Source of the DNA: Naasia aerilata
GTDB lineage: Bacteria > Actinomycetota > Actinomycetes > Actinomycetales > Microbacteriaceae
Length of the DNA stretch: 64,000 nt
Reading direction: 5' to 3'
NCBI RefSeq assembly: GCF_030296595.1
Contig: NZ_AP027731.1
Span: forward strand, 1,612,001 to 1,676,000
Shown piece by piece: positions 27,811-60,353 of the stretch. A program made the position numbers and the translations under genes. Below the pieces are notes generated by a model that was not told where the DNA came from, ran no database searches, and was given only the letters and a program-made list of their open reading frames with translations. How positions within the stretch are numbered: position 1 is the first letter of the stretch; each line of letters begins with the position of its first letter.

Positions 27811-29081
<1,271 letters not shown>

Positions 29082-35698: not shown

Positions 35699-35751
35699 CC
35701 CCGCACTGGGGGTGCCGGCCGGCCGTTTTCAGCGGACGATCAGGTTATCCT
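35699..35751 (+). promoter_or_regulatory. DUF4012-rml operon promoter with GC-palindrome (site 2)
   Basis: CCCC-GCACT-GGGGG (35699-35712), then 33 bp, then the -10 box TATCCT (35746-35751), which stands 7 nt from ATG 35759, so the transcript is probably leaderless. The palindrome also lies about 40 bp upstream of a TACGGT box for the divergent wzy-like gene. Confidence 0.5.
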
Positions 35752-35758
35752 GTGGCGG

Positions 35759-37572
35759 ATGGAGACCCTTCCCGAGTCGGCTCCCGCGGATGGAGCGGAC
35801 TCCGAAGGAGCGCGGCTCCCGTCTCGCCGTTCACGGCGCCTCCTGATCTGGGGGATCGTCGCGATCGTCGTGCTCGGCGTCGCGGCGTCCGTTCTCTGGG
35901 TCGGCTCGCGGGCGCTCGCCGCCAAGGCGTCGCTCGAGCGAGCGGAGGCCCTGGTGAGCCAGCTGAAGGACGCGGTCACCGCCGATCCGTCGACGGCTCC
36001 GGCCCTCGCCGACCGGCTGGTGCGCGAGACTACGGCGGCACGGGCGGACACCGACGGCATCCTGTGGCGCATGGGGGAGGCGGTCCCGGTCCTCGGGGCG
36101 AACCTCTCGGTGACGCGGCAGCTGGCGGCGTCGGTCGACGATGTCGCCCGCGGTGCGGTGCGGCCGCTCGCCTCGGCGGGCACCGCGATCTCCTCCCTGC
36201 GCCCTGTCGACGGAGCCCTGGATCTCGCCGAGATCCGCGACCTGGTCGGTCGGCTGCAGCGCGCCGGCGCCGTCCTCCAGCGCGCCCAGCAGCAGGTGCA
36301 CGAGCTCGACGCGTCCGGCACGGTCGGCCAGGTGTCGGCTGCCCGGGACCGGCTGGACACGCTGCTCGGCTCGGCGACCGAGGCGGTCGCCCCCGCGCTG
36401 AAGGCAGCGCCGCTGCTGGTCCCGATGCTCGGCGGCGACGGTCCGCGCACCTACCTCGTCATGTTCCAGAACCCGGCGGAGGCGAACTCGCTGGGCGGCA
36501 ATCCCGCGTCGATGATCCTGATCGGGGCCGACCAGGGGCGCATCTCGCTGCTCGCGCACGCCAGCAGCGGGGACTTCGTGCAGTATGCCCCGCCGCCGAT
36601 CCCGCTCGACCCGAACCTGGCGCAGGTGTACGAGCCGCGATTCCCCCTGCTCGTGCAGGACATCGCCACCCGGCCGGACTTCCCGACCATGGCGGCCCTC
36701 GGCAAGGGCTACTGGGAGCGCCAGTTCGGCGGCCGCATCGACGCGGTGGTGTCGTTCGATCCCATCGCCCTGGCGGGGCTCCTCCGCGCCACCGGGCCGA
36801 TCTCTCTTCCATCGGGCGACACCGTCACCAGCGACAACGCGGTGAGCCTCCTCCTGTCGGAGGTCTACTCGCGCTTTCCGAACCCGGTGGACCAGGATGC
36901 CTTCTTCGCCGCGAGCGCGGACGGCATCTTCCAAGGGCTCACCTCGGGCGAGGTCGCACCCGTCGCCCTGCTGTCCGCGCTCACGGAGGCGGCGGACCAG
37001 GGGCGGCTGATGCTCTGGAGCACGCGTGCCGACGAGCAGGAGGTGATCGCCGCATCCCCGCTGTCCGGGATCCTGCCCGTCGACAACTCGGCCTCGACCA
37101 CGGTCGGGGTGTATTTCGACGACACCTCCGTCTCGAAGCTCGACTACTACGTCGACACGGCCGTGCAGGCGTCCGGCACCTGCTCGGCGCGGGGGGACCG
37201 AACCTACACCGTCACGTCCACGATCTCCTCGCGTCTGACGCAGGAGCAGGCGGATCGCCTGCCGTCCTACGTGGCGAGCGGCTGGCTCCCCTCGGGAGAG
37301 GTGGGCACCGACCTCTACGTCGTCGGACCGCCCGGGTCCTCCTTCCAGGGCTGGTCCGTGACCCAGCCCGGACTCGACGACCGGATCATCTCAACGGGGA
37401 CCGACCTCGGGCGCCCGGTCGCGCGCTTCGCCACGATCCTCGGCCCGTCCGGGACGACGACGATCAGCGTCACCTTCACGGCCCCGCCGGGGAGTACGGT
37501 GCGCTCGCCGTCCGCACCACTCCGATGGTCAATCCGACCGCCGTCACGGTGCAGCAGCCGACCTGCGGCTGA
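35759..37572 (+). CDS. DUF4012 membrane-anchored protein (frameshifted near 3' end)
   Basis: 604 residues. A short cytoplasmic N-terminus is followed by one helix ([20 protein letters not shown]), a helical stalk (about 50-200) and the DUF4012 domain beginning [20 protein letters not shown]. The reading frame breaks near 37492; restoring a G (G4 to G5) gives [16 protein letters not shown] and a natural stop. DUF4012 proteins are common in actinobacterial polysaccharide loci, but their biochemical role is unknown to me. Position at the head of the rml operon suggests a part in rhamnose-containing glycan assembly outside the membrane. Confidence 0.85.
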
Positions 37573-37623
37573 TCCGTCACCACAACGGGGATTTGCCGCC
37601 CCTCCGGCCGCCCGCCATGCTGA

Positions 37624-39500
<1,877 letters not shown>

Positions 39501-39501
<1 letters not shown>

Positions 39502-40900
39502 TGGCCCTCGAGTACGGCCGTCCGCTGTCCGTGCGGACGACGGACATCCCGGGCCTGCTCATCCTCGAGCTGCCGGTTCACGGCGACTCGCGCGGCTGGT
39601 TCAAGGAGAACTGGCAGCGCGCGAAGATGGTGGCCGAAGGGCTGCCGGACTTCGCTCCGGTGCAGAACAACGTCTCGTTCAACGAGAAGGTCGGCACCAC
39701 CCGGGGCATCCACGCCGAGCCGTGGGACAAGCTCGTGTCGGTCGGCACCGGGCGGGTGTTCGGAGCCTGGGTCGACCTGCGCGCGGGAGAGACCTTCGGC
39801 GCGCTCGTGACCGTCGAGCTCGACCCGTCCGTCTCCGTCTTCGTGCCCCGCGGCGTCGGCAACGCGTTCCAGACGCTCGAGCCGAACACCGTCTACAGCT
39901 ACCTGGTCAACGACCACTGGAGCGCGGGCGCCCAGGCGCAGTACACCTTCCTCAACCTCGCGGACGAGACGGTCGACGTGCCGTGGCCGGTGCCGCTCGC
40001 GGATGCGGAGCTCTCCGACAAGGACCGGTCGCACCCGCGCCTGGCCGAGGTCCGGCCGATGGCGCCACGCGGCACCCTCGTGCTCGGTGCCGGCGGCCAG
40101 CTCGGCACGGCACTGCGCGCCGTCTTCCCCGACGCCGACTTCCTCACCCGCGCCGACTTCGACCTCGCCGATGCGGCCGCCTACGGGCGCATCCGCTGGA
40201 AGGAGTACGGCACGGTCGTGAACGCCGCGGCCTACACGAAGGTGGACGCCGCCGAGACGGCGGAGGGCCGCAGGGCGGCCTGGGCCGCGAACGTCGCCGG
40301 CGTGGGCCTGCTCGCGCGGGCCGCGACCGAGAACGGCCTGACGCTCGTGCACGTGTCGAGCGACTACGTCTTCGACGGCACGCTCGAGGTCCACACCGAG
40401 GACGAGCCCTTCAGCCCGCTCGGCGTCTACGGCCAGACCAAGGCGGCCGGGGATGCCCTCGTGGCGACCGTTCCCCGCCACTACATCGTCCGCACCAGCT
40501 GGGTGATCGGCGAGGGCGCCAACTTCGTGCGCACCATGGCGTCGCTGGCGGAGCGCGGCGTGACCCCGACCGTCGTCGGCGACCAGATCGGGCGCCTCAC
40601 GTTCGCCGAGGACATCGCGGCCGGCATCGCGCACCTGGTCGGCTATGCGGCGCCCTACGGCACGTACAACCTCACCAACGAGGGGGAGCCGCAGTCGTGG
40701 GCGGACATCGCGGCGCGCGTCTACGAGCTCACGGGCCACGATCCGGAATCGGTCACTCCCGTCTCGACGGCCGACTACTTCGCGGGCAAGGAGGCGGCGC
40801 CCCGCCCCTGAACAGCGTCCTGACCCTGGAGAAGCTGGCCGCGACGGGCTTCGTGCCGCGCGACGCGGACACCGCGCTCCGCGCCTATCTCGGCGCCTGA
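39501..40900 (+). CDS. rmlCD: Fused dTDP-4-dehydrorhamnose 3,5-epimerase / reductase (frameshifted near end)
   Basis: Residues 1 to about 180 are RmlC-like (cupin): LPVHGDSRGWFKENWQRAKM, FAPVQNNVSFNEKVGTTRG followed by IHAE (the His pair region), and GNAFQTLEPNTVYSYLV. From about 188 RmlD-like: GTLVLGAGGQLGTALRAVF, HVSSDYVFDG, YGQTKAAGD (YxxxK). The frame is lost at the C4 run 40804-40807; restoring a C gives APRPLNSVLTLEKLAATG and 466 residues in total. The fusion performs the last two steps to dTDP-L-rhamnose. RmlC-RmlD fusions are frequent in Microbacteriaceae and support that placement. Confidence 0.92.
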
Positions 40901-41253: not shown

Positions 41254-41682
41254 TCAGGGGGCGACCGGCGGCCAGGGGCCGAGGCGCTGGCCGATCCGCT
41301 GCGCCAGCTCCTGGGTGGAGATGTAGCCCTGCGCCACCTCGCGCAGGAGGCTGAAGGTCTCGTTGTCGCTGAACTGCATCGCCGCCCGGTTCAGCTCCAG
41401 GAACACGTTGGTGGCGAGCCAGGCGAGCCTCTTGTTGCCGTCGAAGAGCGCATTGTTGCGGGCGAGGCTCTCCATGAGCACGGCGGCCTTCGCGGGCAGG
41501 TTCGGGTACACGTCGCGGCCGCCGTAGCGCATGGCGGGACGGTCCACGGCGGAGATGAGCAGGCCCATGTCGCGGACCGACTCCCGAAGGGGCGCTTCGG
41601 TGAAGATCTCGATGATCTGGACGACGTCGTCGACGCTCAGATACTCATAGGAGGGAGCGTCGGCCGGAAGACCGGCAGACAC
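41254..41682 (-). CDS. Doc/Fic-like toxin of a toxin-antitoxin pair
   Basis: 142 residues, death-on-curing family. The signature reads ARNNALFDGNKRLAW; the family consensus in this subgroup is NHALxDGNKR, so the catalytic His is replaced by Asn (AAT for CAT, one base). YLSVDDVVQIIEIFTE and the N-terminal region fit Doc. Doc toxins phosphorylate EF-Tu. The GTG start is 2 nt behind the antitoxin stop, so the two are one operon. Loss of the His would predict an inactive toxin, unless the base is a sequencing error. Confidence 0.82.
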   Translation of the reverse strand: MSAGLPADAPSYEYLSVDDVVQIIEIFTEAPLRESVRDMGLLISAVDRPAMRYGGRDVYPNLPAKAAVLMESLARNNALFDGNKRLAWLATNVFLELNRAAMQFSDNETFSLLREVAQGYISTQELAQRIGQRLGPWPPVAP

Positions 41683-42103: not shown

Positions 42104-44593
42104 TCAGGCCGCGGGCGGCCAGCTGCGGCCGAGGCTGAACCAGAAGCGTCCGCCGTGCGTGCGCGCGTGGTGCTCGGCGGCGAGGAGCGCCGCGGCGCGG
42201 AGGAGGAGCTCGTGGTCTCCGGCGGGAGCGCCCGCGGCCGCGCCGAGCGCGGCGAAGTCCTCGTCGAACTCCCCGGTCCGCAGGGCGGCGAGCAGCTCGG
42301 CATCGCGGAGGAGCAGCACGTAGGGGTCGTAGAAGTAGGGACGGAGTCCCGCGTCCTCGAAGTCGATGGCGCTCCAGCCGCCGTCCTCGGCGACGAGGAG
42401 GTTGAGCCCGGTGAGGTCGCCGTGGCTGAGGACGAGCGGCCACGCGGAGGCGGCGGCCCGCAGCTGGGGCGCGAGCGCCTCCACCTCGGCGACGATCGCC
42501 TTCGGCGCGCCCTCCCGGGATTCGGCTGCGCGCGTCAGCGCCGCGTCGACCGCCGCACGCGCGTCGCCGGAGCGCGCGGACCGGGCGAGCGCGGTGTACG
42601 CGCGGACGACCCCGTGCACGGTCGCCACCCGCAGGTCGAGGGGCGCCCGAGAGAACTCGACGCCCGAGGCCAGGCCCTCGCGGAGCACGGTGCGGTCCTC
42701 GGTGAGGGACCACGACGGGTTGGGGAGGACCTGCGAGAGGGCCTCACGGTGCTCTTCGTAGCCGGCGGGGAACGGGGCGCGGCGCACGTGCGTGACGGAT
42801 CCGCCGGTGCGGTCGAAGAGCACGAGGCCGCGGTCCTTGGTCAGGAGCGCCTCGACGGCTCCGCCACGGGGGTCGCCGCCGGGAACCGTGATGGTGCGGG
42901 GACCGGCCAGCTCGGTGCGGCGGCGGACGATCCGCTCCTTCGCGTTCCGGGGCGGGCGACGGCGGGCGGCGGCGCCCTGGGAGGCGAGCCGCCCCTCGCG
43001 CCCGGTGTGGAAGGCGGAGCTCACGGTGGGCAGCGACCAGCGCCCCTCGCGGAGGTGCGGCGCCGCCTGCTGGAGAAGCTCGGCGAACGTGCGCTTCTGC
43101 TCCCGCTCCCAGGTGATGCCCTTGCGGCCCGAGCGGCGGCCCACCATCCGGCGGGCGAAGGAGAGGACGACCTCGACGTCGGCGCGCACGAAGGGGAGGA
43201 GCAGCGCCGCGAGCACGACGTAGACGAGGGCGAAGCCGAGCCCGGCGAGCAGCTGCACGATCGAGGGCGCGGGGATCAGCGTCCCGAGCCAGGCCAGCAC
43301 GCCGCACGGGATGCTGATGGTGACGATCGTGCGGATCGCGTTGGCGAACAGCGGCCTCGTGTCGACGCCCGTCACGACGCCCACGCGCCAGAGGGAGACG
43401 ACCCAATGCAGCGCGTAGGCGACGGTCGAGCCGATCGCGACGCCGAACGGACCCCACGGGAGCCCGGCCAGGATGATGAGGATCATGAAGGGGCGGACCG
43501 CGAGGAACATCCGCAGTTGCGCCCCGGTCCGGCCGGTGGCGAGGTAGATCCAGTAGGAGATCTGGGCGATGGCCCGGAGCATGCCGCCCACGGCGAGGGC
43601 GGCGAAGATCGGGGCGACGCCCGTCCACTTGGGTCCGAACAGCACGAGCACGAGCGGCACGGACAGGCCGGCCGCGACCGCGAAGACCGTCGCGGTCAGG
43701 TAGGCGCCGACCAGCTGGGACCGCTGCAGGTAGCGCGCGAACACGTCCCGCTGCTCGTGCACGCGGGACAGGATGGGGAGCGCCACGCGCGTCATCGGTG
43801 CGTTGATCTGGTTGAGCGGCGTCATGAGCAGCTGATACGCCCGGTCGTAGAGGCCGAGCGGAGAGGCGCCCCAGACCGCGCCGATCGCGACGTTGTCGAC
43901 GTTCTTCGTGACATAGGAGATGGTCTGGGTGCCGAGCACGCCGAGGCCGAACTTCACGAAGCGCCGGATGGACACCGACCGCTTCGGCAGGCCGGGCTTC
44001 CATCGGGAAGCCGCCACGTTGAGGAGGCATGCGATCGCGACGGTCGACACCTGCTGCACGACGATCGCCCAGTAGGACCAGCCGAGGATGGCGCCGGTGA
44101 TGCCGAGCACGAAGCCGCCGACGACGCCGGCGGTCTCGATGCCGGTCAGGAGCCCGAAGCGAAGCGAGCGGGTGAGATCCGCCTTGAACTGGGTGTTGAT
44201 GCCGCTGAAGACGAACGTGGTGGACATCGCGGCCACGATCGGAACGAGCCGCGGCTCGCCGTAGAGCAGCACGATCAGGGGGCTGATCAGGATCACGACG
44301 ACGCTCGAGAGGACCCCGAGCCCGGTGTTGACCCAGAAGAGGTTGGTCCGCTCGTCGTCGGTGACGTTCTTCGCCTGGATGGCGGCGCTCGAGAGGCCGA
44401 AGTCCCTGATCAGCTCGGAGATGCCGATCACTGCGGCCACCATGGCGATGAGACCGAAGTCCTCGGGCGTGAGCAGGCGCGCGAGGATGACCGTCGACGC
44501 GAACTGAAGCAGGACACGCACGGCCTGGCCCAGCAGGGTGACGCCGGTCCCGCGGGCGGCGGAGTCGCCGAGGCTCGGGGTGGTGGTCGTCAC
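42104..44593 (-). CDS. Wzx-type flippase fused to an APH-like kinase domain
   Basis: 829 residues in one uninterrupted frame. Residues 1 to about 480 are a polysaccharide flippase (WzxC/PST group): GVTLLGQAVRVLLQFASTVI, LARLLTPEDFGLIAMVAAVI, and about 12-14 helices. After a basic linker (RRMVGRRSGRKG) comes a cytoplasmic domain with the aminoglycoside/choline-kinase signature SHGDLTGLNLLVAEDG (about 720-735) and SAIDFEDAGLRPYFYDPYVL (DFE near 741). The kinase N-lobe is poorly conserved. A flippase with its own small-molecule or sugar kinase is unusual. GTG 44593 lies 8 nt after a TAGGTT box. Confidence 0.85.
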   Translation of the reverse strand: MTTTTPSLGDSAARGTGVTLLGQAVRVLLQFASTVILARLLTPEDFGLIAMVAAVIGISELIRDFGLSSAAIQAKNVTDDERTNLFWVNTGLGVLSSVVVILISPLIVLLYGEPRLVPIVAAMSTTFVFSGINTQFKADLTRSLRFGLLTGIETAGVVGGFVLGITGAILGWSYWAIVVQQVSTVAIACLLNVAASRWKPGLPKRSVSIRRFVKFGLGVLGTQTISYVTKNVDNVAIGAVWGASPLGLYDRAYQLLMTPLNQINAPMTRVALPILSRVHEQRDVFARYLQRSQLVGAYLTATVFAVAAGLSVPLVLVLFGPKWTGVAPIFAALAVGGMLRAIAQISYWIYLATGRTGAQLRMFLAVRPFMILIILAGLPWGPFGVAIGSTVAYALHWVVSLWRVGVVTGVDTRPLFANAIRTIVTISIPCGVLAWLGTLIPAPSIVQLLAGLGFALVYVVLAALLLPFVRADVEVVLSFARRMVGRRSGRKGITWEREQKRTFAELLQQAAPHLREGRWSLPTVSSAFHTGREGRLASQGAAARRRPPRNAKERIVRRRTELAGPRTITVPGGDPRGGAVEALLTKDRGLVLFDRTGGSVTHVRRAPFPAGYEEHREALSQVLPNPSWSLTEDRTVLREGLASGVEFSRAPLDLRVATVHGVVRAYTALARSARSGDARAAVDAALTRAAESREGAPKAIVAEVEALAPQLRAAASAWPLVLSHGDLTGLNLLVAEDGGWSAIDFEDAGLRPYFYDPYVLLLRDAELLAALRTGEFDEDFAALGAAAGAPAGDHELLLRAAALLAAEHHARTHGGRFWFSLGRSWPPAA

Positions 44594-44601
44594 AAGGCCC
44601 T

Positions 44602-44678
44602 AACCTAACTCCGGCGCGCGGGGCGGATCGGCCCCCAACTATAGGGGGCATACCGATAGAAGGCCTGGCCGGTACAGT
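44602..44678. promoter_or_regulatory. Divergent promoter pair around a GC-palindrome (site 3)
   Basis: GCCCCC-AACTATA-GGGGGC (44631-44649) is centred between two -10 boxes: TACAGT (44673-44678) for the rightward wzy gene and TAGGTT on the minus strand (44602-44607) for the leftward flippase gene. The distance from the G/C blocks to each box is 24 bp on both sides. The strongest of the six sites. Confidence 0.65.
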
Positions 44679-44684
44679 GATTGC

Positions 44685-44696
44685 CTACCCGAACCC
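44685..44696 (+). other. Leader block shared with the giant-protein genes
   Basis: CTACCCGAACCC, 13 nt before the GTG of the wzy gene. The identical 12-mer occurs in the leader of the 60244 gene, again 13 nt before the start codon, and with one extra base in the leader of the 54817 gene. Confidence 0.4.
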
Positions 44697-44709
44697 CGAA
44701 AGGCACATC

Positions 44710-46032
44710 GTGTCCGGACAAGCCACCCGGCTTCAGGAGCGCAGGGCCGTACTCACCGGCCCGCGCCGTGAAGTGACTCCCGCGCCCCTCACGGGCCCCT
44801 GGCTGGTTCTCGCCCGCTTCGTCGCGCTCGCCGCGATCCTGCTCCTGTCCTCGCGCCAGTTCCTCGGCCAGGGCATCACCTTCGGGCACCTCGCGAGCCT
44901 CGCGCTCATCCCGCTCTGGCTCCCGGCGTTCCGCCGCTACGCGGGCGGGCTCTGGATCGCCGTGCTCGGTCTGCTCGGCCTGATCTTCTCGCTCTGGCTC
45001 ACCGACGTCGCCTCCCTCGACCACATCGTCACCCAGAACAACCTCATCTCGAACACCCTGCTGCTGGTCGGCACGGTCGCGGCGGTGGGCGTCATCTTCT
45101 GGGCGCGCGACTTCCTGCCGATCTGGGCGCTCGCCCTCGTCTACGGCGTTGGCATGCTCATCTCGGCGCTCACCCGTGAGGAGAGCTTCCTGGTGAACCC
45201 GTGGAAGTTCGCCCTCGCGGTCCCGCTCGCCGTGGTCCTGCTGGCGCTCGCCGAGTGGACGGGGAAGCGCTCGCTTCAGGTCATCGCGCTGCTCGTCCTC
45301 GCCGCCGCATCGCTCGCCTTCGACTCCCGCGCCTACTTCGGCCAGTTCCTGCTCGCCGCCGTCCTCGTCGGATGGCAGCTCATCCCGCTGCTGCCCGGCC
45401 GCAAGGGCTCCGCGGCGCGCGTCCTCTTCACCTTCGCCGTCATCGCCATCGTCGTCTTCGTGGCGAGCAGCCAGCTCATCGCGAACGGCGTGCTCGGCGA
45501 GGAGGCGCAGGCCCGCACGGTCGAGCAGCAGGACCGGGCGGGCAACGTGCTCCTGGGCGGACGCCCCGAGGCCGCGGCCACCGTCGCGCTGTTCCTGTTC
45601 CGGCCTCTCGGCTTCGGCGCCGGCGCCCTCGCGAACTCCAACGACGTGCAGGTCGCGAAGACCGGCATGCACCAGATCAACTACGACCCGAACAACGGGT
45701 ACGTCGAGAACTTCCTCTTCGGGCAGAAGTTCGAGCTGCACTCGATGCTCGGCGATCTGTGGGCCTACTTCGGCTGGGCGGGCATCGCCTTCGCCGCCCT
45801 CTCCCTCGTGCTGCTGCTGCACGTCGTGGGCAGGGGCGTCGCGGACCGCACCGTCGGCGGCGTCGTCATGTTCGTGGCGACCCAGAGCCTCTGGAACCTG
45901 TTCTTCAACCCGCTCTACACGTCGGCTCCGGTCCTCGCGCTCGCGCTCGGCCTCGGCCTCGCGGCGAAATACCGTGGGAGCGCGGGACGCGACGGAGCGC
46001 TCACAGCACCGGCCATCGCCGCCGCGCGCTGA
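44710..46032 (+). CDS. Wzy-type polymerase / O-antigen ligase-like membrane protein
   Basis: 440 residues, intact, about 11-12 helices. The periplasmic part after helix 7 has AGNVLLGGRPEAAATVALFL, FRPLGFGAGALANSN and NNGYVENFLFGQKFELHSML, resembling the Wzy_C/ligase loop with Arg and His residues. Together with the divergent flippase and the downstream Wzb/Wzc it completes a Wzx/Wzy-dependent exopolysaccharide set. Start GTG 44710 is supported by GAAAGG 7 nt upstream. I cannot tell polymerase from ligase by sequence. Confidence 0.8.
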   Translation: MSGQATRLQERRAVLTGPRREVTPAPLTGPWLVLARFVALAAILLLSSRQFLGQGITFGHLASLALIPLWLPAFRRYAGGLWIAVLGLLGLIFSLWLTDVASLDHIVTQNNLISNTLLLVGTVAAVGVIFWARDFLPIWALALVYGVGMLISALTREESFLVNPWKFALAVPLAVVLLALAEWTGKRSLQVIALLVLAAASLAFDSRAYFGQFLLAAVLVGWQLIPLLPGRKGSAARVLFTFAVIAIVVFVASSQLIANGVLGEEAQARTVEQQDRAGNVLLGGRPEAAATVALFLFRPLGFGAGALANSNDVQVAKTGMHQINYDPNNGYVENFLFGQKFELHSMLGDLWAYFGWAGIAFAALSLVLLLHVVGRGVADRTVGGVVMFVATQSLWNLFFNPLYTSAPVLALALGLGLAAKYRGSAGRDGALTAPAIAAAR

Positions 46033-46740: not shown

Positions 46741-46783
46741 CCCCTATCTGGGGGCGGCATGTTGGGATGCCCGGTTCTAGCAT
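46741..46783 (+). promoter_or_regulatory. wzc promoter with GC-palindrome (site 4)
   Basis: CCCC-TATCT-GGGGG (46741-46754), 23 bp, then the -10 box TAGCAT (46778-46783). The start GTG is at 46816, preceded by GAAGGA. Confidence 0.55.
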
Positions 46784-46815: not shown

Positions 46816-48282
46816 GTGGATACTCGCCGTTATTTCACGGCCCTGCGCAAGCATTGGCTCGTCCTCACCGCCCTGACGGTGCTCGGCGGGCTGCTCGCGG
46901 GCCTCTACTCCGCTACCCAGCCGGTCCTCTACCAGGCCACCAGCAGCGTCTTCGTGTCCACCCAGCGCGGTGAGACCACGACCGAGCTCCTTCAGGGCTC
47001 CTCCTACACTCTCGCCGCCGTCGAGTCCTACGCCGAGCTCGCGACCCTTCCCGCGGTCCTCCAACCGGTCATCGAGAAGCTTCAGCTGGACACGACGCCC
47101 GGCGCACTCGCGAACCACATCACCACGCAGATCCGCCTCAACACCGTGATCATCGAGGTCACCGCGAGCGCCGGCACCGCACAGGGCGCGGCCGACCTCG
47201 CCAACGCGGTCACCGAATCGCTGTCGACCGTCGTGACGTCGCTCGCCCCGACGGCCACCGACGCGACCCCCGCGGTCACGCTCAGCCCGGTCGCCCCGGC
47301 GGCCCCGCCGTCGGCGCCGTACTCGCCCCGCTACCTCCTGCTGATCCTCGCCGGACTCGGCATCGGCCTGCTGCTCGGCATCCTCTACGCGATCGGCCGG
47401 GACCTGTTCGACACCCGCCTCCGCACCGAGGACGACGTCCGCGCCGCCGCCGACACCGTGCCGTACCTCGGCTCCGTGGAGCGCCGCCGCAGCTCCGATC
47501 TGCCGCACCTGATGTTCCTCGCGGAGCCGAACAGCGCAGCCGCCGAGGACTACCGCCGCCTCTGCACCAACCTCGAGTTCGCGGGCATCGACAACCGCGT
47601 CCGCGCGATCTCGGTGACGTCGGCCCTCGCGGGCGACGGCAAGACGACGACCGCGCTCAACCTGGCAGCGGCCATCGCCGAGCGCGGGCACCGGGTGCTC
47701 GTCGTCGACGCGGACCTGCGCCGCCCGGCGCTCGCCGGCTACGTCAACATCGAGGGAGCCGTCGGCCTCACGAACGTCCTGCTGGGCGGCGTGAGCGCGG
47801 ATGACGCCATTCAGCGCGTCGGCACCTTCGACGTCCTGCCCTCGGGCACGACCCCGCCGAACGTGACGCAGCTCGTCACCTCGGAGTCGATGGGCCGGCT
47901 GTTCGCGGAGCTCCGCACCCGCTACGACTTCGTGGTCGTGGACACTCCGCCGGTCCTCGCCGTGCCGGACGCCCTCACCATCGCGAACCTCACCGACGGC
48001 GCTCTCCTGGTCGCCCGGTCGAAGGTCACCCGCAGCAAGCAGCTCGTCGAGGCGGTGGACGCGCTCACCTTCGTGAACGCGGTCGTCCTCGGCATCGTCC
48101 TCAACGGCGTGCCGCACGGCAACGCCTCCACCTACGGCTACGACCAGATCGAGCGCGGCGACACCGCGGCGCTCCCGGCCTCGGCGCAGCCGCCGACCTC
48201 CTTCTTCCGCGGTGGGGCATCCTCGCAGCAGTCGGCGGGCTCGAACTTCGCGGAGGTCGGTGGCGGCTCCGCCGCCTCCTGA
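46816..48282 (+). CDS. Wzc/CapAB-like chain-length determinant and tyrosine autokinase
   Basis: 488 residues, intact. Residues about 1-200 are the Wzz domain: RYFTALRKHWLVLTALTVLG with helix 1, a 130-residue extracytoplasmic part, and helix 2 at LLLILAGLGIGLLLGILYAI. The BY-kinase domain has Walker A SALAGDGKTTTALNLA (about 270-285), Walker A' VLVVDADLRRP (about 294-304) and Walker B FVVVDTPPVLA (about 373-383). The C-terminal tail has only two tyrosines (YGYDQIE), fewer than the cluster in enterobacterial Wzc. Controls polymer length and export with the divergent phosphatase. Confidence 0.92.
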   Translation: MDTRRYFTALRKHWLVLTALTVLGGLLAGLYSATQPVLYQATSSVFVSTQRGETTTELLQGSSYTLAAVESYAELATLPAVLQPVIEKLQLDTTPGALANHITTQIRLNTVIIEVTASAGTAQGAADLANAVTESLSTVVTSLAPTATDATPAVTLSPVAPAAPPSAPYSPRYLLLILAGLGIGLLLGILYAIGRDLFDTRLRTEDDVRAAADTVPYLGSVERRRSSDLPHLMFLAEPNSAAAEDYRRLCTNLEFAGIDNRVRAISVTSALAGDGKTTTALNLAAAIAERGHRVLVVDADLRRPALAGYVNIEGAVGLTNVLLGGVSADDAIQRVGTFDVLPSGTTPPNVTQLVTSESMGRLFAELRTRYDFVVVDTPPVLAVPDALTIANLTDGALLVARSKVTRSKQLVEAVDALTFVNAVVLGIVLNGVPHGNASTYGYDQIERGDTAALPASAQPPTSFFRGGASSQQSAGSNFAEVGGGSAAS

Positions 48283-50404: not shown

Positions 50405-53400
50405 TTACGGGACCGTGGTGACCGCGTAGTCGTCGTACGCCAGGGTGTACGGCGTGTTGGTCGCGCTGCTGTAGATGCCGAGGCCGAACGAGCCGGCCGT
50501 CTGCAGGGCCGCCGTCGTGTCGGTGATCGTCTTCTGCCACGCGGCGGGCTCGGGCGTGCCCACCTTCCACACCTTCACGTTGAGCGTCGTCGGCGACGTG
50601 CCGACCACCTGGAAGCGGACCTGCAGGGCATCGCCGGCCGCGAAGGTGAGTCCGCTGATGGCCGTCGTGCCGCCGATCGTCGTGCCCGCGGCCTGGAACT
50701 GGACGCCGACGGCGCCGGTCGTGTTCAGCTGGATGCGCGCGCGGTAGTCGGTGCTGCTCACGCGGCGGCCGATCACGGCGGCGTAGACGGTTCCGCCGGT
50801 CGGGACGGCGCCCGGCCGGATCACCGCGGTGACCTCGGAGCGGGTGCTCGTGACGCCGCGCAGGTATACCTCGGCGGCCTGGCTGGGGGCCGACGTGGTC
50901 AGCTTGCCGGCCCCGTCCACCGAGTAGTACCCGGGGTTGGTGCTGCTGCTCGAGGTCCAGGCGCCACCCGTGGTGGCGGTACCCCAGGTGCCGGTGAGCG
51001 CCCGGTTGAAGTCGTCCGCGGCGATGGGGGTGGCCGGAGGCGGCGTGACCGTCCCGACGGTGACCGACTGGGTGGTGGTGCCGGTGGCGCCCTTGTCGTC
51101 GGTCACCGTGAGGGTGATCGTGTAGGTGCCCGCGGCGTAGGTGTGCGTCGCGGTCGCCCCGGATCCGGCGGCGCTGTTGTCGCCCCAGTTCCAGGAGTAC
51201 GCGGCGATCGTGCCGTCGGTGTCGGCGGAGCCGGATCCGTCGACGCTCACGTCCAGCCCGTTCGTCGCGGCCGTGAAGGACGCGGTGGGGGCGGCGTTGG
51301 CGGGCGGCGGGGCATCAGCGACCGTCACCGACCGGGTGGTGGTGCCGGTGGCGCCCTTGTCGTCGGTCACCGTGAGGGTGATCGTGTAGGTGCCGGCGGC
51401 GTAGGTGTGCGTCGCGGTGGCCCCGGATCCGGCGGCGGTGTTGTCTCCCAGTTCCAGGAGTACGCGGCGATCGTGCCGTCGCTGTCGGCGGAGGCCGACC
51501 CGTCGACGCTCACGCCGAGCCCGTTCGTCGCGGACGTGAAGGACGCGGTGGGCGCGGCGTTCGCGGGCGGCGGAGGCGTCGCCGAGACGACGCCGGCCCA
51601 GAAGTCGTCGAAGCTCACGGTGTACGAGGCCGGGGAGGCGCTCGCGCTCAGGTAGCTCGAGATGCCGACCGAACCGGCGGCCTGCAGCGCGGCGGTGGAG
51701 TCGGTCGTCGTGGCCGTCCATGCCGTGGGCTCGGTGGTGCCGACCTTCCAGACCTTGGCCTGCAGGGTGGTCGGGGACGTGCCGATCGCCTGGACCCGAA
51801 CCCGGAGGCTGTCGCCCGCCGCGTAGGTCAGGCCGGAGACCGAGACGGTCCGCAGCGTGGTGCTGCTCTGCTGGAGCTGCAGCTGGACGGCGCCGGACGA
51901 GGCGACGACGACGCGGGCCTGGTAGAAGGCGCTGCCGACTCGCCGGGCCTGGACGGACGCGTAGGCGCTGCCGGACGTGGGTCGCACGGAGAACGCCACG
52001 GTCGCCTGGGCCTCGTTGTCGGTGGCGTTGACCGTGCCGAGGTAGGCCGTGCGGGTGGAGCCGGCCGGCGTGAGGACCTGCGCGGCGCCCGATGCGACAG
52101 AGTACGCGGACGCCGGGCTCACGACGGACCACAGGCCGCCGGTCTCCGCGGTGCCAAGTCCGTTCGTGGCCGTCCGGCCGAAGCCGTCCTGTGCCAGCAC
52201 GGCGCCGGCGACAGGGGGATCGGTCGGGCTGACGGTCGCGGTGCGGGTCGCCGTGGCGCCGCCGTTGTCCGTCACCGTGAGGGTGACCGTGTAGGTCCCG
52301 GCCGTCGCGTAGCTGTGGGTCGCGGTCGCGCCGGTGGCCGTGCCGCCGTCTCCGAAGCTCCACGCGTAGGACGCGATCGTGCCGTCCGAGTCGGTGGACC
52401 CTGAGCCGTCGACCGTCACGTCCAGGTTGGCGGTCTTGGCGGTGAAGGACGCGGTGGGAGCGACGTTGATCGCCGCGCCGCTCGTGCCGAGGTCGTAGTG
52501 GCTCTTCACCGTCGCGGCGTCGAGCTGCCGGTCGTAGACCGCCACCTCATCCACCGTGCCGTTGAAGTACTTCACGCCCGACGCGGTGGTGTCGCCGCCG
52601 ATCCGCCAGAAGCCCGGGTAGGTCCAGGCCGCCGTGTTGGTGCCGGTGCGCTGGGCGACCCGGACGCCGTCGACGAAGATCTGCAGCCCGTTGCTGCCGA
52701 CCGTGCCGACCGCGTGGTGCCACCCGTTGTTGTTGTAGCGCGCGGTCGTCGTGACCGAGACCGTCGTGGCGCCGGAGCGCACGCCGAAGACCAGCTGACC
52801 GTTCGAGTTCATCGTGATGTCGCGGTCGTAGTTGTTCGTCGAGTTGCCGGTGGCCATGTTGCCGAAGCCGACGATCTTGCCGCCCGCGGTCGTGTTCGTC
52901 TTGAACCAGGCCTCGACCGAGAGCGTGCTCGGGGGCAGGACGGACGTCGAGGTCGCGATCATGCCGTTGGGCGAGGAGCCGGAGGTCCGGACCGCGGTGT
53001 TGGTGTCGCCCGTGATGGCGCCCGCCTGGGACCGCGTCACTCCGGTGCCGGCGACCGCGTTGTTGGTGCCCGCCCAGTCGGTGACCGCGGTGCCCGAGGA
53101 CTCGCCGAGGCGCCAGAAGGACGCGGGGCGGTCGGCGAGGACCGCGTTCGCGTAGCTGCTCACGGTTCCGCTGGTGGCGACCGTCGTGGTGGCGGGGTCA
53201 CCCCACGACACATTGCCGAACGGGTCGGTCACGCGCAGCCGGTAGCTGTGGGTGCTGCCCGGCGCGACGCCGCTGTCCAGGAAGGTCATGGACGGCCGGT
53301 CGTACCAGTTGTGCGACGTCTGCGTGACCGAGTAGATCGGCGCCGCGTTGTTGCCGTCCCGGATGAGGTCGTAGGTCAGCGACGCGTTGTCACGGTCGTA

Positions 53401-54817
53401 GTTCGCACGCCAGTTGATGCGCACGGAGCCCGAGGACGCCGAGACGAGGTTCGGGATGAAGTTCGTGCCGCTCAGGCGCGGGCCGTCGTCGTTCGGAGCG
53501 ACCGCCTTGGTCGCGAAGCGGACGATGCCCTGCTGGTCGGTGCTGTTCACCTTGGTGAACTCGCCGGCGTAGACCACATAGGTCTCGTTCGCGGCGACGC
53601 TCCACGGTCCCTGGCCCTGGCCGGTGAAGGTCCCGGTGTCGAACGAGGGCCACCAGTCCAGCACGGTGGGTGCGGGGGTGCCCGCCCACTTGGTGCCGGT
53701 GCTTACCGCGCCGGACGGGTTCTTCGCCCAGGCCATGCCGCGCTGGTACGTCCAGTCGGGGGACGTCTGCGGGAAGCCGCCGTTGTTGGTCGAGCAGTCA
53801 TGGTGGTGGCCCGCGATGTAGGCCACGTTGGCGGTGAGGCCCAGCGAATAGGTGTCACCGAGGCAGCTGTCCGCCCAGACGAGGTCGCCGTTGGTCCAGT
53901 CGGCGCGGAACGCGCCCTCCTCGTTGCCGCCCGCGCCGTAGACGTAGCCGGTGCCGTAGACGCCCGTGGAGTCCGAGGTGAGGCTGTAGATCGCGGAGTT
54001 CACGCCCGCGTTGCGCACCTTGCTGTTCGCGTTCCAGGTCATGGACGTGCCGGTGCTGGCGTTGACCGCTCCGAGGCCGTAGCCGGGGTTGCCGGAGCCG
54101 TTGAGGGTCGTGAAGGAGCCGCCGAGGACGACCTTGCCGGCGTCGGGGGAGATCGCGATGCCGAGGACGTGGCCGCCCTCCGCGGTCGCGGTGAAGGGCA
54201 GCACGGCGCCCGTGCTCGCGTTGAGCGCGGCCACGCGGGTGCGCGTGGAGCCGCTGACGGCGGTGAAGTTGCCGCCGATGTAGACGGTGGAGTTCGTGGC
54301 CCGGACGGCGTCGACGACGGCGTTGGCGGAGGGGCGAAGCCGGCGACGACGGCGCCCGAGGCGACGTCGAAGGCGACGACGCGGTTGCGCGTCAGCCCGT
54401 TGACCTGGGTGAAGGACCCGGCAGCGTAGACGCGAGTGCCGTCCGGCGACACCGCGAGCGACTTGACCTCGCCGTTGAGGGTCGGAGCGAATCCGGTGAT
54501 CAGCTCGCCGGTCGTCAGGTTGTAGGCGAGGAGGTTCGATCGCGGCACCGTGTTGACGCCCGCAGGGGAGCCGGCGGGGCGCGCGGTCGTGAAGTTGCCG
54601 CCCGCATAGACGGTGTTGCCGGCGATCACCTGCGACCACACCACGCCGTCGATCTGGACGGTGGGCAGCGGGTCGGTCGATACCGTCTCCGGCACGCCCG
54701 CGGGGGCGCGGTGTCCGCGAAGGCGGCACCGGAGGAGATGACGGCACCGAGCACCAGGGCGACGGTGGTGGTGACGGCAGCGAGCGCGCGCGTGCGCGAC
54801 TGATTGCGTGAGGACAC
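50405..54817 (-). CDS. Giant secreted multidomain protein A (beta-propeller, FnIII, LamG, PKD; three frameshifts)
   Basis: About 1471 residues after restoring one C at each of three sites (near 54703, 54332 and 51447). Signal peptide MSSRNQSRTRALAAVTTTVA to about residue 36. Then a beta-propeller-like region (40-435) with repeats such as NTVYAGGNFTTARPAG and AVSPDGTRVYAAGSFTQVNG, FnIII (440-550), LamG (555-785), PKD1 (790-865), jelly-roll module 1 (875-1080, ending SFDDFWAG), PKD2 and PKD3 (1085-1255), and module 2 (1262-1471). No LPxTG or C-terminal anchor. Probably an adhesin or matrix protein held by lectin-like contacts. Start GTG 54817; its promoter carries palindrome site 5. Confidence 0.85.
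51058..51575. repeat. Tandem duplication of a PKD-coding unit
   Basis: Two direct copies of about 260 bp (roughly 51058-51315 and 51321-51575) encode PKD3 and PKD2 of protein A and agree at more than nine bases in ten by eye. They share segments such as GTGGTGCCGGTGGCGCCCTT. Other PKD units in the window are much less alike, so this duplication is recent or kept alike by recombination. Confidence 0.65.
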
Positions 54818-54828
54818 GGGTAAGCCTC

Positions 54829-54841
54829 GGGCTTCGGGTAG
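54829..54841 (-). other. Leader block related to the wzy leader
   Basis: CTACCCGAAGCCC on the minus strand, 11 nt before GTG 54817. It differs from the wzy and 60244 leader block by one base. Confidence 0.35.
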
Positions 54842-54874
54842 CGGGTGCCGGCATCGGGGGTTGCCGGTCTAGGA

Positions 54875-54917
54875 ATGTTAGAGCTTCGAGCGATCTCGGC
54901 GCGCCCCACAATGGGGG
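54875..54917 (-). promoter_or_regulatory. Promoter of giant protein A with GC-palindrome (site 5)
   Basis: On the minus strand: CCCCC-ATTGT-GGGG (54904-54917), 23 bp, then -10 box TAACAT (54875-54880). The leader is about 50 nt. Confidence 0.55.
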
Positions 54918-54966
54918 ACAAACGGGTGCGGATCGGGGGACGGAACAGGGGAGGAGGAGCAGAAAC

Positions 54967-55013: not shown

Positions 55014-58000
55014 TTACGGCTCCGTGACGACGAAGTCGTCGAAGGAGACGGTGGAGGGCACCGGCACGTTGCCGATGTACGCGCCGAGCCCCGGGGAGCC
55101 GGCCGCCTGCAGCGCCGCGACGGTGGTGTCGGTCGCGGTGACCCTCCAGGTCGTCGGCTCCGGAGTGCCGACCTTCCAGATCTTGACCCGCAGGGTGGTC
55201 GGGCTGGTGCCCGTCACCTGCAGGCGGATCCGGAGCTGGTCGCCGGCCGCATAGGTGAGGCCGGTCGCCGCCGACTGGACCGTCGAGCCGTTGACCTGCA
55301 GCTGGGCGGTGATGGCTCCGCCCGCCGCGATGGCGGCGCGGGCGCGGTAGTCGCTCGTGCCGACGCGGCGGCCGATCACCGAGACGTACACCGTGCCGCC
55401 CGAGGGAACCGCGCTGAGCGAGGCGGTCGCCTGCACATCCGCGTTGGTGCTCGTGACCCCGTTGAGGAAGCTCTCGAGCGTCTTTCCCGGGGTGGTCGTG
55501 GTGAGAAGGCCGACGCTGCCGTCGGTCGAGTACGCCGTGGTGGTGCTGCTGCCCCGCGTCCACGCTCCGCCGACGGTGGCGCTGCCCCAGCCGCCGGACG
55601 TCGTGCGTGCGAAGTCGTCGCTCGCGAGGGCGTTGCCGGCCGGCGGAGGCGTGGTGGCCACGGTGACCGACGCGGTCTCCGTGTCGGTCGCGCCGCCGTT
55701 GTCGGTGACCGAAAGCGTCACCGTGTAGGTGCCCGCCGCGACGTAGGTGTGACTGGCCGTCGCGCCGCTGCCGGCGGGCGTCCCGTCACCCCAGTTCCAC
55801 GCCGTCCCGGTCACGGTGCCGTCGGAGTCCGTGGACGTCGACGTGACGTTCACCGTCAGGCCGCTCACCGAGTTGGTGAACGACGCGACCGGGGCCGCGT
55901 TTCCGGCCGGCGGAGCCGTCACCGTCACCGCGTGGGTGACCGTGCCGGTGGCGCCGCCGTTGTCGGTGACCGTGAGGACCACGTTGTACGTGCCGGCCGC
56001 CGCGTAGGTGTGCGTCGCCGTGGCGCCGCTGCCGGCCGCCGTGTTGTCGCCCCAGTTCCACGAGTACCCGGTGATGGTGCCATCGGAGTCGGCGGACCCG
56101 GCGCTGTTGACGCTGACGCCCAGGCCGGTCACGGTGCTCGTGAAGGCGGCCGTCGGGGCGGCGTTGGCGGGCGGCGGGGTGGTGCCGCCGGACGGGCCGG
56201 CGCTGAAGTCGTCGAACGCGTAGGTCACGCTCGTCGGCGCCGCGCTGGCACTGAGGTAGCTGTACAGCCCGACGCTGCCGTTCGCCTGGAGCGCTGCGGT
56301 GGCGTCGGTGATGGTCGCCTGCCAGGCGGTCGGCTCCGGGGTGCCCACCTTCCAGACCTTGGCGTTCAGGGTCGTCGGGCTGGTGCCGACCGCCTGCACG
56401 CGGATCCGGAGCTGGTCGCCCGAGGCCACGGACAGGCCCGTGACGTTCACGGTCCGGAGCGTCGTGCTCGTCTGCAGCAGCTGCAGCGAGACCGAGCCCG
56501 ACGCGGCGACCACGGCGCGGCCGAGGTAGAAGGACGAGCCCACGCGCCGGGCCAGCAGGCCGACGTAGGCGCTCCCGGACGTCGGCCGGGTCGTCACCGT
56601 CGCGGTGGCCGCGACATCGGAGTCGGTGACGGACACCGAGCTCAGGTAGCCCGTGCGGGTGGAGCCCGCCGGGTTCGTGAACCGGGCCGCGCCGTTCGAG
56701 ACCGCGTAGTTGGATGCCGTGCTGGAGACCATCCACGCGCCGCCGGTGTTGGCGGTGCCGAGTCCTCCGGTGGTGGTCCGCGTGAACGTGTCGTTCGCGT
56801 AGGCGGTGCCTCCCGGCGCCGCCGAGACCGTGACCGATGCGGTCTGGGTGTCGGTGGCGGCGTCGTCGTCGGTCACCGTGAGGGTGATCGTGTACGTGCC
56901 GGCCGTGGCGTAGGTGTGGGTCGCGGTCACACCGGTGCCGGGGGTGGTGTTGTCGCCCCAGTTCCAGGAGTAGGACGCGACCGTCCCGTCGGTGTCCGTG
57001 GAGGTGCTGCCGTTGACGCTCACGCCGAGGCCGTTCACCGTGTTGGTGAAGGCCGCGGTGGGCGGCGTGTTCGGCGGCGTGGCGCCACCGACCGTGATGC
57101 TGCCCGATGTGGTCCCGGAGGCGCCCTTGTCGTCGGTCACCTTGAGGGTGATCGGGTAGGTGCCCGCGTTGGCGTAGGCCTTGTTCGGGTTCGCCAGGGT
57201 CGACGTCGTGCCGTCACCGAAGGTCCACGCGTAGGCCGCGATGGTCCCGTCCGGATCGGTCGACGTCGAGGTGAAGGCGACCGTGAGGCCGTTGACCACC
57301 GACGTGTAGGAGGCGGTCGGGGTGGCGTTGGTGTTGTTGCCGGCGACGGTCACCACGCCGGTGGTCACGCCGGTCGCGAAGGCGTTGTCCCTGACCGTGA
57401 GGGTGATCGTGTAGCTCGCGGCGGAGGCGTAGGCGTGGCTCGCCGTCGGCGTCGTGGTCGTCGTGGTCGGGCTGTTGTCACCCCAGTTCCACAGGTAGCT
57501 GGAGATCGTGCCGTCGGTGTCCGTCGAGGTCCCGCCGTTGACGTTGACCGTGAGGCCGTCGGTTGTCGACGTGAAGGCCGCGGTGGGCGGGTTGTTGGTG
57601 TTCGGGCGGACGGTCGCGACGAAGTCGTTCGTCGCGCCCTGGTTGTCCGTGACCGTCAGAGTGACCACGTAGTTGCCGGCCACCGAGTAGGCGTGGCTGG
57701 GGGTGGCGCCGGTGCCGGTCGTGCCGTCACCGAACTGCCAGGAGTAGCCGGCCACCGAGCCGTCCGGGTCCGTCGACGCCGAGGCGTTGAAGGCCACGTT
57801 CAGCTGGTTCGTCACGCTGGTGAACGTCGCGTTGGGGGCGAGGTTCCCGGCTGCGCCGACGGTGCGACCCGACAGCGTGTAGTGCTCCGAGATCTGCTCC
57901 GGCGCGAGCTGGGCGGCGTAGACGGCCACCTCGTCCACGGTTCCCGAGAAGTACGTCGGGCCTCCGGCGACGCGGGCGACGTCGCCACCGACCCGCCAGT

Positions 58001-60244
58001 AGCCCCAGGCAGAGCGCAGCGCCGTCACCGACGTGTTCTGTCCGGCGAGGACCCCGTCCACGTACAGACGGGCTCCGGTGGCGCCGACCGTGACGGCGAC
58101 GTGGTGCCACTGGTTGTCGTTGTAGCCGGACTTGGTCGTGTTGAGGCTGACGCTGCCGCGGGCGCTGTTCGCCGAGTAGGCGATCTTGCCCGAGGAGTCG
58201 ATGGAGACGACGCGGTCAGAGGTGGTCGCGTTGTCGACCGTCACATCGATGGCGGGGCCGGAGCCGAAGCTCAGGATGTTGCCGCCGGTCGTGCTCGAGG
58301 TCTTGAACCACGCCTCCTCGGTGTAGGCCGCCGGGGCCTGCACCGTGTTGACCGAGGTGGCGACACCCGCCTGGGTTCCCGGGAAGCTGGCCGCGCGGTC
58401 GGCGTCACCGGAGAGCGCGCCTGCCTGGTTGCCGCTGACGCCCGTGCCGCCGTTGAGCGCGTTCACGCCGATCTGGTCGGCGAACCGGGTGCCGCTCGTC
58501 TCTCCCAGGCGCCAGTACGCGGTGGGCGCGTCCCCAACCACTGCGGGCGAGTAGCCGCTCGGGCTGCTCGAGGGGATGGTCACCGTGACCGCGTTGCCCG
58601 TGACCGAGTTGCCGAACGGGTCGGTGGCGCGGATCCGGTACTGCTGGCTGCTGCCCGGCGTCAGGCCGCTGTCCCGGTAGGTCATCGTGGGCCGGTCGAA
58701 GTTGGCCCGCGAGCCCTGCACGGCGGTGTAGATCGGCGTGGCCGTCGCGGCGCCGCGGATGAGGTCGTACGTCAGGTACTGGTTGTCCCGGTCGTAGTTG
58801 GTCTGCCACTTGACGTCGACGACGCCGGAGCTGACGCCGACGACCGTCGGCACGAAGCTGGAGCCGGTGACTCGGGGGCCGTCGTCGTTCGGCGCGATCG
58901 CCTTGCTCGCGAAGCGCACGATGCCCTGCTGGGCGATGTTGTTGACCCGGGTGAACTCGCCGGCGTAGACGACGTAGTTGTCGGTCGCCGCGATGGCCCA
59001 GGGTCCCTGGCTCTGGCCCGTGAAGGTGCCCGTGTTGAAGTCGGGCCACCAGCTCAGCATGGTCGGAGTGGGCCAGTTGGCGAACTCGCCGGAGAGCACC
59101 TTGTTCGAGGAGGCGTTCTTGCTCCACGCCATCGCGCGGTGGTACACGCGCGGGTTCTGCTGGCTCGCGTCGGGGAAGCCGTTCGCGATGGTCGAGCAGT
59201 CGTGCGGGTGCCCGGCCAGGTACAGGGTCGTGGAGTTCATGGCGACGTCGTAGCTGTCGCCCTTGCAGCTGTCGAGCCAGACGATGTCGCCGTTGGCCCA
59301 ATCGGCGCGGAAGGAGCCCTCCAGGGTGCGGCCGCTGACCGGGTACATGTAGGCGGTGCCGTACACGCCGGTGGCGTCGGACTTGAGGCTGTAGATCGCC
59401 GCGCTCTGGGAGAAGGCGCCGCCCGCGGACGCCCGGCCGGCCTGGCGGATGGTCTTGTTGATGTTCCAGGGCATGACCTGGCTGGTCGACGTGTTGACGG
59501 CGCCGAAGCCGAAGCCCGGGTCCGTGGAGCCGTTGATGTTCGTGAAGTAGCCGCCGATGACGACCTTCGAGCCGTCCGGCGACAGCGCCATGGCGAGGAT
59601 GCGGTCGTCGACCTGGATGCTGAGCGGGTTGAGTGCGCCCGTGCTCGCGCTCACCGAGGCGAGGCGGTTGCGTGCGGTCCCGCCCACGGAGGTGAAGTTG
59701 CCGGCCGCGTACACGGTGGTGTTGTTGGCGACGACCGCCTCCACCGCGCTGTTGAAGGAGGGCGCGAAGCCGGAGATCACGGCGCCGGTCGTCGGGTTCA
59801 GCGCGGCCACCCGGTTGCGCGTCGTGCCGTTGACCGTCGTGAACGTGCCGCCGATGTAGATGCGGGACCCGTCAGGCGAGGACGTCACCGAGTTGACGAC
59901 GCCGTTGGTGTTCGCGACGAAGCCCGTGATGAGCGCGCCGGTCTGCAGGTTGAAGGCGAGCATGTTCGCGCGCGCCGTCTGGTTCTGGCCTGCGGCTGCG
60001 CCGGCCGGACGGGCGTTCGTGAACTGGCCGCCGGCGTAGACCGTGTTGCCCACGATGGTGGTCGACCACACGACTCCGTCGACCTGCACCGTGCCGAGCA
60101 CGTCGGTCGAGACCGTCTCCACGTCGCCGTTCTGCGGGGCAGTGTCGGCGTAGGCGGGGAGGCCGCGTAGAGGATGCCCGCCGTGACGACAGCAGCCGTG
60201 GCGAGGGCGAGAGCGCGCAGGCGCGCAGGAAAGGAAGTGGGCAT
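55014..60244 (-). CDS. Giant secreted multidomain protein B (frameshifted in the signal peptide region)
   Basis: 1743 residues after restoring one C near 60158. Signal peptide MPTSFPARLRALALATAAVV ending near AYADTAPQ. Beta-propeller-like (40-435; NTVYAGGQFTNARPAGAAAG, VTSSPDGSRIYIGGTFTTVN), FnIII (450-560), LamG (568-790), four PKD domains (800-1141), jelly-roll module 1 (1148-1350), two PKD (1360-1528), module 2 (1535-1743). The modules share the block GTSPTTLNAKVWKVGTPEPT and close with AFDDF. Six PKD units make this the longest stalk of the three paralogues. No sortase signal. Likely a surface or matrix protein; ligand unknown. Confidence 0.87.
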
Positions 60245-60257
60245 CGGGTACGCCTCT

Positions 60258-60269
60258 GGGTTCGGGTAG
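60258..60269 (-). other. Leader block identical to the wzy leader
   Basis: CTACCCGAACCC on the minus strand, 13 nt before ATG 60244, the same distance as at the wzy gene. Confidence 0.4.
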
Positions 60270-60304
60270 CCGGCAGCAGTCGGGGTTCTGCGAGCCGTGG
60301 CTGG

Positions 60305-60353
60305 AGTATAGAGGGCAAAGGGCCCGCTTGACTACCACCCCCAGTTGACGGGG
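60305..60353 (-). promoter_or_regulatory. Promoter of giant protein B with GC-palindrome (site 6)
   Basis: On the minus strand: CCCC-GTCAACT-GGGGG (60338-60353), 27 bp, then -10 box TATACT (60305-60310). The leader is about 55 nt. Confidence 0.55.

Follow-up and report, generated by a model that had tools for sequence, protein, structure and literature searches.

Is the C/G-run palindrome that recurs upstream of surface-polysaccharide and large surface-protein genes of Naasia aerilata the operator of a common regulator and, if so, what kind of protein would bind it and which functions would it connect? We addressed this question for a window of 64,000 bases (bases 1,612,001-1,676,000 of a genome that consists of a single contig of 3,391,135 bases) and for the corresponding regions of related genomes; coordinates are those of the window unless marked as genome positions. 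The palindrome is conserved before sugar-coat and large surface-protein genes, and our analysis indicates that a regulator very probably docks there. For a little-studied group of actinobacteria, this defines by sequence a putative operator of surface-polysaccharide and adhesin-like genes.

Dyads at promoters in the window

A preliminary description of the window had listed six sites of the form CCCC-N5/7-GGGG(G), followed by TANNNT boxes at 19, 33, 24, 23, 23 and 27 bp, and all of these were recovered as claimed. Between the divergent wzx and wzy genes lies the dyad GCCCCC-AACTATA-GGGGGC (44631-44649, no strand assigned), with the wzy -10 box TACAGT (44673-44678, plus strand) on one side and the wzx -10 box TAGGTT (44602-44607, minus strand) on the other. 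The equal distance of 24 bp to both boxes that had been reported is exact both ways, and corresponds in either direction to 32.5 bp from the dyad centre. The wzc dyad CCCC-TATCT-GGGGG (46741-46754, plus strand) is followed 23 bp on by TAGCAT (46778-46783, plus strand; centre distance 30.5). On the minus strand, the dyad 54904-54917 of the gene for a giant PKD/LamG protein (51367-54921) stands 23 bp from TAACAT (54880-54875; centre distance 29.5), and the N7 dyad 60338-60353 of the gene for a giant PKD protein (55014-60338) stands 27 bp from TATACT (60310-60305; centre distance 35.5). The two remaining sites, both on the plus strand, precede glf (C5/G5 arms, 27853-27866; TATCGT at 27886-27891, 19 bp; centre distance 26.0, non-canonical) and the gene for a DUF4012-nucleotidyltransferase protein (35699-35712; TATCCT at 35746-35751, 33 bp; centre distance 40.5). 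Thus, four of the seven promoter directions (wzx, wzy, wzc and giant 54921) have centre distances of 29.5-32.5 bp and three deviate (glf, giant 60338 and DUF4012). An evident -35 box is absent by eye from the 44631 and 46741 promoters, in line with the preliminary description, which had said so of the promoters generally.

The wzx flippase gene (Polysacc_synt_3; 42104-44593, minus strand) carries a C-terminal APH-like phosphotransferase domain and would be nearly leaderless if the start codon of its longest frame, at 44593, is correct. The wzy-like gene (44677-46032, plus strand; the in-frame GTG at 44710 is a likely start) has orthologues in two genomes of the same genus, G002 and G003, and has no Pfam or NCBIfam match, its 'Wzy' label coming from the preliminary description and the context. 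The wzc gene (46816-48282, plus strand) combines a Wzz domain with a tyrosine autokinase, and the other dyad-bearing genes encode GLF (glf), DUF4012 fused to a nucleotidyltransferase, and the PKD/LamG giant proteins. The fusion is a single frame of 914 amino acids (35759-38503), with which the G002 orthologue aligns over nearly its full length. A small Fic/DOC-family protein with about 93% identity in G003 is encoded at 41254-41682, right on the 3' side of wzx, between the latter and the frame 39447-40811.

The 5' leaders of several dyad-bearing surface genes also contain a doubled element, TACCCG-N9-15-TACCCG, that sometimes reaches the start codon (54840 and 60268 on the minus strand; 66595, 76508 and 82241 on the window scale; also in the G003 and G002 clusters). 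TACCCG alone shows no clear excess over its reversed form (73 vs 58 in the own genome, 49 vs 28 in G003 and 50 vs 77 in G002). The doubled element possibly constitutes a second signal that acts at the RNA level.

Frequency and location of the dyad

As a bare string, the dyad is not over-represented in the N. aerilata genome as a whole: CCCCN5GGGGG occurs 45 times vs 36 for the reversed pattern, and CCCCN5GGGG 113 times vs 109. The distinct G5 sites are concentrated in location, with 10 of 36 in the interval 1.60-1.70 Mb of the genome (binomial p = 6e-8, which is optimistic because this 100-kb interval was picked after the list had been seen) and 5 of 36 inside the window (p = 6e-4). Outside the interval, 2 of the 26 sites (genome 257517, and 1202903 on the minus strand) have a TANNNT box 19-28 bp downstream. 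In intergenic DNA, as defined by simple gene calls from G+C by codon position, the counts of C4N4-7G4 and G4N4-7C4 are 7 vs 1 for the window, 12 vs 2 for the cluster of G003 and 13 vs 2 for that of G002; across a 164-kb region of the own genome the excess is small (16 vs 10). CCCCN5GGGGG exceeds its reversed form in all seven other genus genomes counted (G002 97 vs 34, G003 70 vs 39, G004 57 vs 40, G008 57 vs 27, G001 45 vs 32, G005 41 vs 23, G007 41 vs 35); for G003, G004, G005, G007 and G008 this comparison is one of totals only.

Spacing between dyad and -10 box

Among 134 oriented dyads from the own region and from two relatives, G002 and G003, the distance between the dyad centre and a TANNNT box peaks at 30-33 bp, with 19 cases vs 1.8 expected from the neighbouring distances (p = 1.5e-13). 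Reversed dyads have no such peak (1 of 84 at 26-33 bp), and a relaxed composite scan for dyad plus TANNNT returned 26 hits vs 4 controls, two of which (positions 13725 and 48232 of the G003 cluster) were judged by eye to overlap with true dyads. The peak is also absent for G-runs without a C-run partner, which implies that the whole dyad is needed; a single G-run half-site was thus rejected as the signal. With the T of the -10 box taken at -12, the dyad would be centred at approximately -43.

The spacing is not universal. Some dyads lack a TANNNT box at the canonical distance (e.g. own genome 1678642 and 1600271), and the counts at 40 and 46 bp are only weakly raised, such that we do not claim a helical series of spacings beyond the 41.5-42.5 bp seen beside the regulator gene RR1 (see below). 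For two of the three deviating promoters of the window an orthologue has the canonical spacing (DUF4012 of G003, 32.0; giant 60338 of G002, 31.5); the glf orthologue of G003 has a spacing even shorter than the own 26.

G001, which had not been used in defining the peak, provided a replicate; it lacks a match to the 44677 gene, and its wzc is only 35% identical. In two stretches of this genome, chosen where the listed dyads cluster, 5 of 10 dyads are located 31.5-32.5 bp from a TANNNT box (p = 3e-6). These canonical dyads precede genes for a GDP-mannose dehydratase, a bacterial sugar transferase and a CBM96/LamG protein, as well as, judged by eye, a secreted-looking frame of 674 amino acids and a lipoprotein-like gene.

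Conservation of the dyad in related genomes

The dyads of the wzc and wzx/wzy promoters are retained in orthologous positions; the lack of conservation that the preliminary description had named as speaking against a regulatory site is not what is seen. In G002 and G003 the 44677 gene has orthologues with 65-68% identity and wzc has orthologues with 68-70% identity. The wzc site CGTGCCCCTATCTGGGGG is identical over 18 bases in the three species. The wzx/wzy site retains its arms in all three and has an altered loop in G002; its two -10 boxes still conform to TANNNT. Further wzc homologues within the genus (35-43% identity) are preceded by the dyad in 5 of 11 cases, one each in G001, G004, G006, G007 and G008, at 98-173 bp upstream of the aligned start; the other six lack it in their upstream regions. 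When all wzc loci of genus and family with a fetched upstream region are taken together, the three discovery orthologues included, the dyad is present in 14 of 41, vs 4 of 41 for the reversed form and 6.2% of shuffles; many more family wzc matches had no locus and fall outside these 41. In G002, contigs C3 (588-680 kb) and C4 (96-188 kb) share the same dyads at a constant offset, a sign that this part of the assembly is either duplicated or overlapping.

Association with flagellar genes

A FliS search indicates that seven of the nine genus members are flagellated, G001 and G005 being the two without a match. The dyad is present between fliS and a flgB-like gene in six of these seven, the own genome included, and is absent from that stretch in G008 (flgB and flagellin were named by eye, flgB without a Pfam hit). 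Every dyad found in the seven FliS loci sits in the stretch behind fliS; three of the seven loci also contain reversed dyads, in two cases within this same stretch, and the placing of the flgB dyad relative to a -10 box looks different from the canonical one. In G002, dyads separate fliS from the flagellar genes that follow it, and others precede a flagellin-like gene and the gene for a sigma factor next to flgN, which we take to be FliA. From the recurrence of the dyad before flgB in six of the seven, coat and motility would appear to share a single regulator. Compared with the regulon that had been proposed before, i.e. galactan, rhamnose, Wzx/Wzy/Wzc and surface proteins, the actual extent appears wider, as dyads also occur before flgB and, in relatives, before the gene divergent from RR1.

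A proposed operator for a class II activator and its alternatives

The reading that we consider highly probable, from the form and position of the sites, is that the dyad is the operator of a dimeric class II activator of a surface and motility regulon, acting near -43; that judgement covers the operator and the mode of activation, and not the identity of the regulator. A dimeric regulator would bind CCCC-N4-7-GGGG in place of a -35 box, with the dyad centre 30-33 bp before the first T of TANNNT, and would from there recruit RNA polymerase. In this genus it would coordinate the genes for Wzx/Wzy/Wzc export, the giant PKD/LamG proteins and the DUF4012-nucleotidyltransferase, perhaps also glf, together with flagellar genes in those members that are flagellated; the single dyad at 44631-44649 would drive wzx and wzy symmetrically. 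The preliminary description had suggested class II activation from the position of the dyad, and a dimer-type site centred at about -43 beside the -10 box supports this proposal, the mechanism itself being deduced from that position.

The same position overlaps a -35 element, so that a dimer at about -43 could instead block RNA polymerase, or be moved away by an inducer. Some dyads elsewhere would suit such a repressor, e.g. the one at own genome 2605523 with TANNNT 4 bp downstream, or one that lies on the -10 box upstream of a LuxR-type gene (L059, discussed below). Activators need a narrow, fixed spacing, whereas repressors usually tolerate looser placing; the narrow distance between dyad and TANNNT and the want of an evident -35 box at the promoters argue for the former and make a repressor operator unlikely. 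That the palindromes are RNA hairpins, i.e. terminators or attenuators, is very improbable: CCCC-N5-GGGG is able to fold and some dyads are without a canonical TANNNT, but a fixed distance to the -10 box would be meaningless for a terminator, and the wzx/wzy site, which lies upstream of both divergent -10 boxes, is absent from the transcripts that would start from either box, for which reason a terminator was rejected there.

CsoR-family operators carry C/G tracts, and a metal-repressor operator of this kind would show a similar C-tract followed by a G-tract. The sole CsoR-family gene found in the genome (genome 2098158) is preceded by TATACCCCCAGGGGGTATA, which has a spacer of one base and TATA flanks and sits just before the gene, unlike the N4-7 dyads at -43; because the dyads do not share this spacer and the TA flanks and differ in promoter position, a CsoR operator was rejected and we give it next to no weight. 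Equally negligible is the explanation that the dyads are random pairings of C and G runs in a genome of 72% G+C. It draws on the near equality of the genome-wide count and the reversed control, but fails on the clustering of the sites, the TANNNT spacing peak, the G001 replicate, the conservation and the stretch before flgB, with spacing and conservation ruling it out; the equal frequency in random sequence that had been named as refuting a regulatory motif is not what is seen once location and spacing are counted.

A wider form of the activator reading is somewhat less than an even bet on the sequence evidence: a genus-wide, partly family-wide regulator, placed at -43 and at some promoters about one helical turn higher (centre distance 40.5-42.5), may switch between a sessile coat and motility. 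Its targets would be Wzx/Wzy/Wzc export and the giant adhesin-like proteins; flagellated species would add the flgB operon, and at least one of them fliA and fliC.

Candidate regulators

The activator is probably a response regulator of the NarL/LuxR type. The own genome has 23 matches to the LuxR-type GerE domain, and a promoter-side dyad is present at three of these loci, i.e. those of RR1, L057 and L059, in a scan for oriented dyads with spacers of 3-7 that reached 1.5 kb upstream from the GerE domain, a range beyond which the promoters of the longest proteins lie. That RR1 shares this feature with two other loci counts against it. RR1 (genome 158098-158760) has a receiver domain (Response_reg, 1.1e-10), a Sigma70_r4_2 match (9.4e-8) and a weak GerE match, which scored 1.4e-4 and 21.9 bits in one scan, below the cut-off of 23.5, and 24.3 bits in another, above it; the gene is followed by those for a histidine-kinase-like protein and for a further candidate, RR2.

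Homologues of RR1 (68-100% identity) are present in all nine genus genomes, and the dyad CCCCA(A/G)TCCGGGGG, or a close variant, occurs upstream of RR1 in seven, which are the seven flagellated genus members examined. Beside six of these seven dyads, the TANNNT box at 41.5-42.5 bp reads away from RR1, towards a divergent small frame that was seen in the own genome and, by eye, in G004; towards RR1, a -10 box is located 28.5-30.5 bp from the dyad in three genomes. In G001 and G005, RR1 is present and the dyad beside it is absent, and it counts against RR1 that the polysaccharide cluster of G001 nevertheless keeps its canonical dyads. Outside the genus, the dyad was found at none of three RR1 orthologues. 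In addition, each of the six extra-genus genomes with a wzc dyad yielded only one homologue in the RR1 search (41-44% identity, E <= 1e-40; RR1 was searched in 27 of 299 genomes), an identity which implies that these homologues are RR2-like, again a point against RR1. RR1 is thus proposed tentatively, as a doubtful best of several candidates. RR2 and RR3 were set aside, with the dyad at 0 of 18 promoters, and so was a WhiB-like gene as an autoregulated master, since dyads are present upstream of it in one of nine genomes (G002). The latter gene (genome 1721905-1722237) is located on the right side of the surface cluster and, in several relatives, about 12-63 kb from a wzc homologue.

That the regulator is another LuxR-type protein, namely a RamA-type orphan LuxR, RR4 or the L057 response regulator, is a serious possibility that we rate below even. 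In seven genomes an RR4-like gene is located 53-89 kb from a wzc homologue (in the own genome about 64 kb to the left of wzc), and G4 direct repeats are found in the promoters of RR4-like genes; the dyad, however, is present in none of the three RR4 promoters scanned (five further upstream regions, the own included, were read by eye), and RR4 was set aside on these grounds. In several relatives the repeats at RR4 (L009:2408-3145; L263-L270) are direct copies of TGGGG spaced by about 13 bp close to a TANNNT box, e.g. TACGAT, and thus present the G-run of the dyad in another arrangement. The L057 gene is preceded by CCCC-TAG-GGGGG, centred 7 bp from TACCGT and just before the start, as an autorepressor might have it, but the spacer is 3 and L057 has no other support. 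The gene itself (genome 2835565, minus strand) encodes a response regulator, with CCCCTAGGGGG adjoining the TACCGT box and the start codon, and its autoregulation is possible. At L059 the dyad contains the TAGGCT box; it is non-canonical, like that of L057, though an autorepressor could look so. A RamA-type protein is suggested by the half-site of the dyad, which resembles that of RamA (PMC4847777); the RamA motifs, however, are described as single runs, and here single G-runs come without the spacing peak.

Comparison with known systems

The kind of operator proposed here is known, while this operator and its regulon were not found in the literature searched (titles and abstract openings), nor was a description of one regulator for coat and motility in this group. 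In LuxR/NarL-type class II activation the lux box overlaps the -35 element. The present dyad, which near -43 replaces the -35 box, is alike in this respect and differs in its sequence, and in that its regulator is a candidate only. The box of DevR/DosR, a NarL-type response regulator of Actinobacteria, is likewise a G/C-rich dyad, GGGAC...GTCCC, but proceeds from G to C, whereas the arms found here proceed from C to G. RamA of Corynebacterium glutamicum has its main known role in carbon metabolism. It is a LuxR-type protein of an actinobacterium that recognizes half-sites of four G or four C, given as A/T/C-GGGG-N and A/T/C-CCCC-N (PMC4847777). Compared with the single runs described for RamA, the site in N. 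aerilata and its relatives is a rigid inverted repeat, which precedes surface genes and keeps a constant distance to the -10 box.
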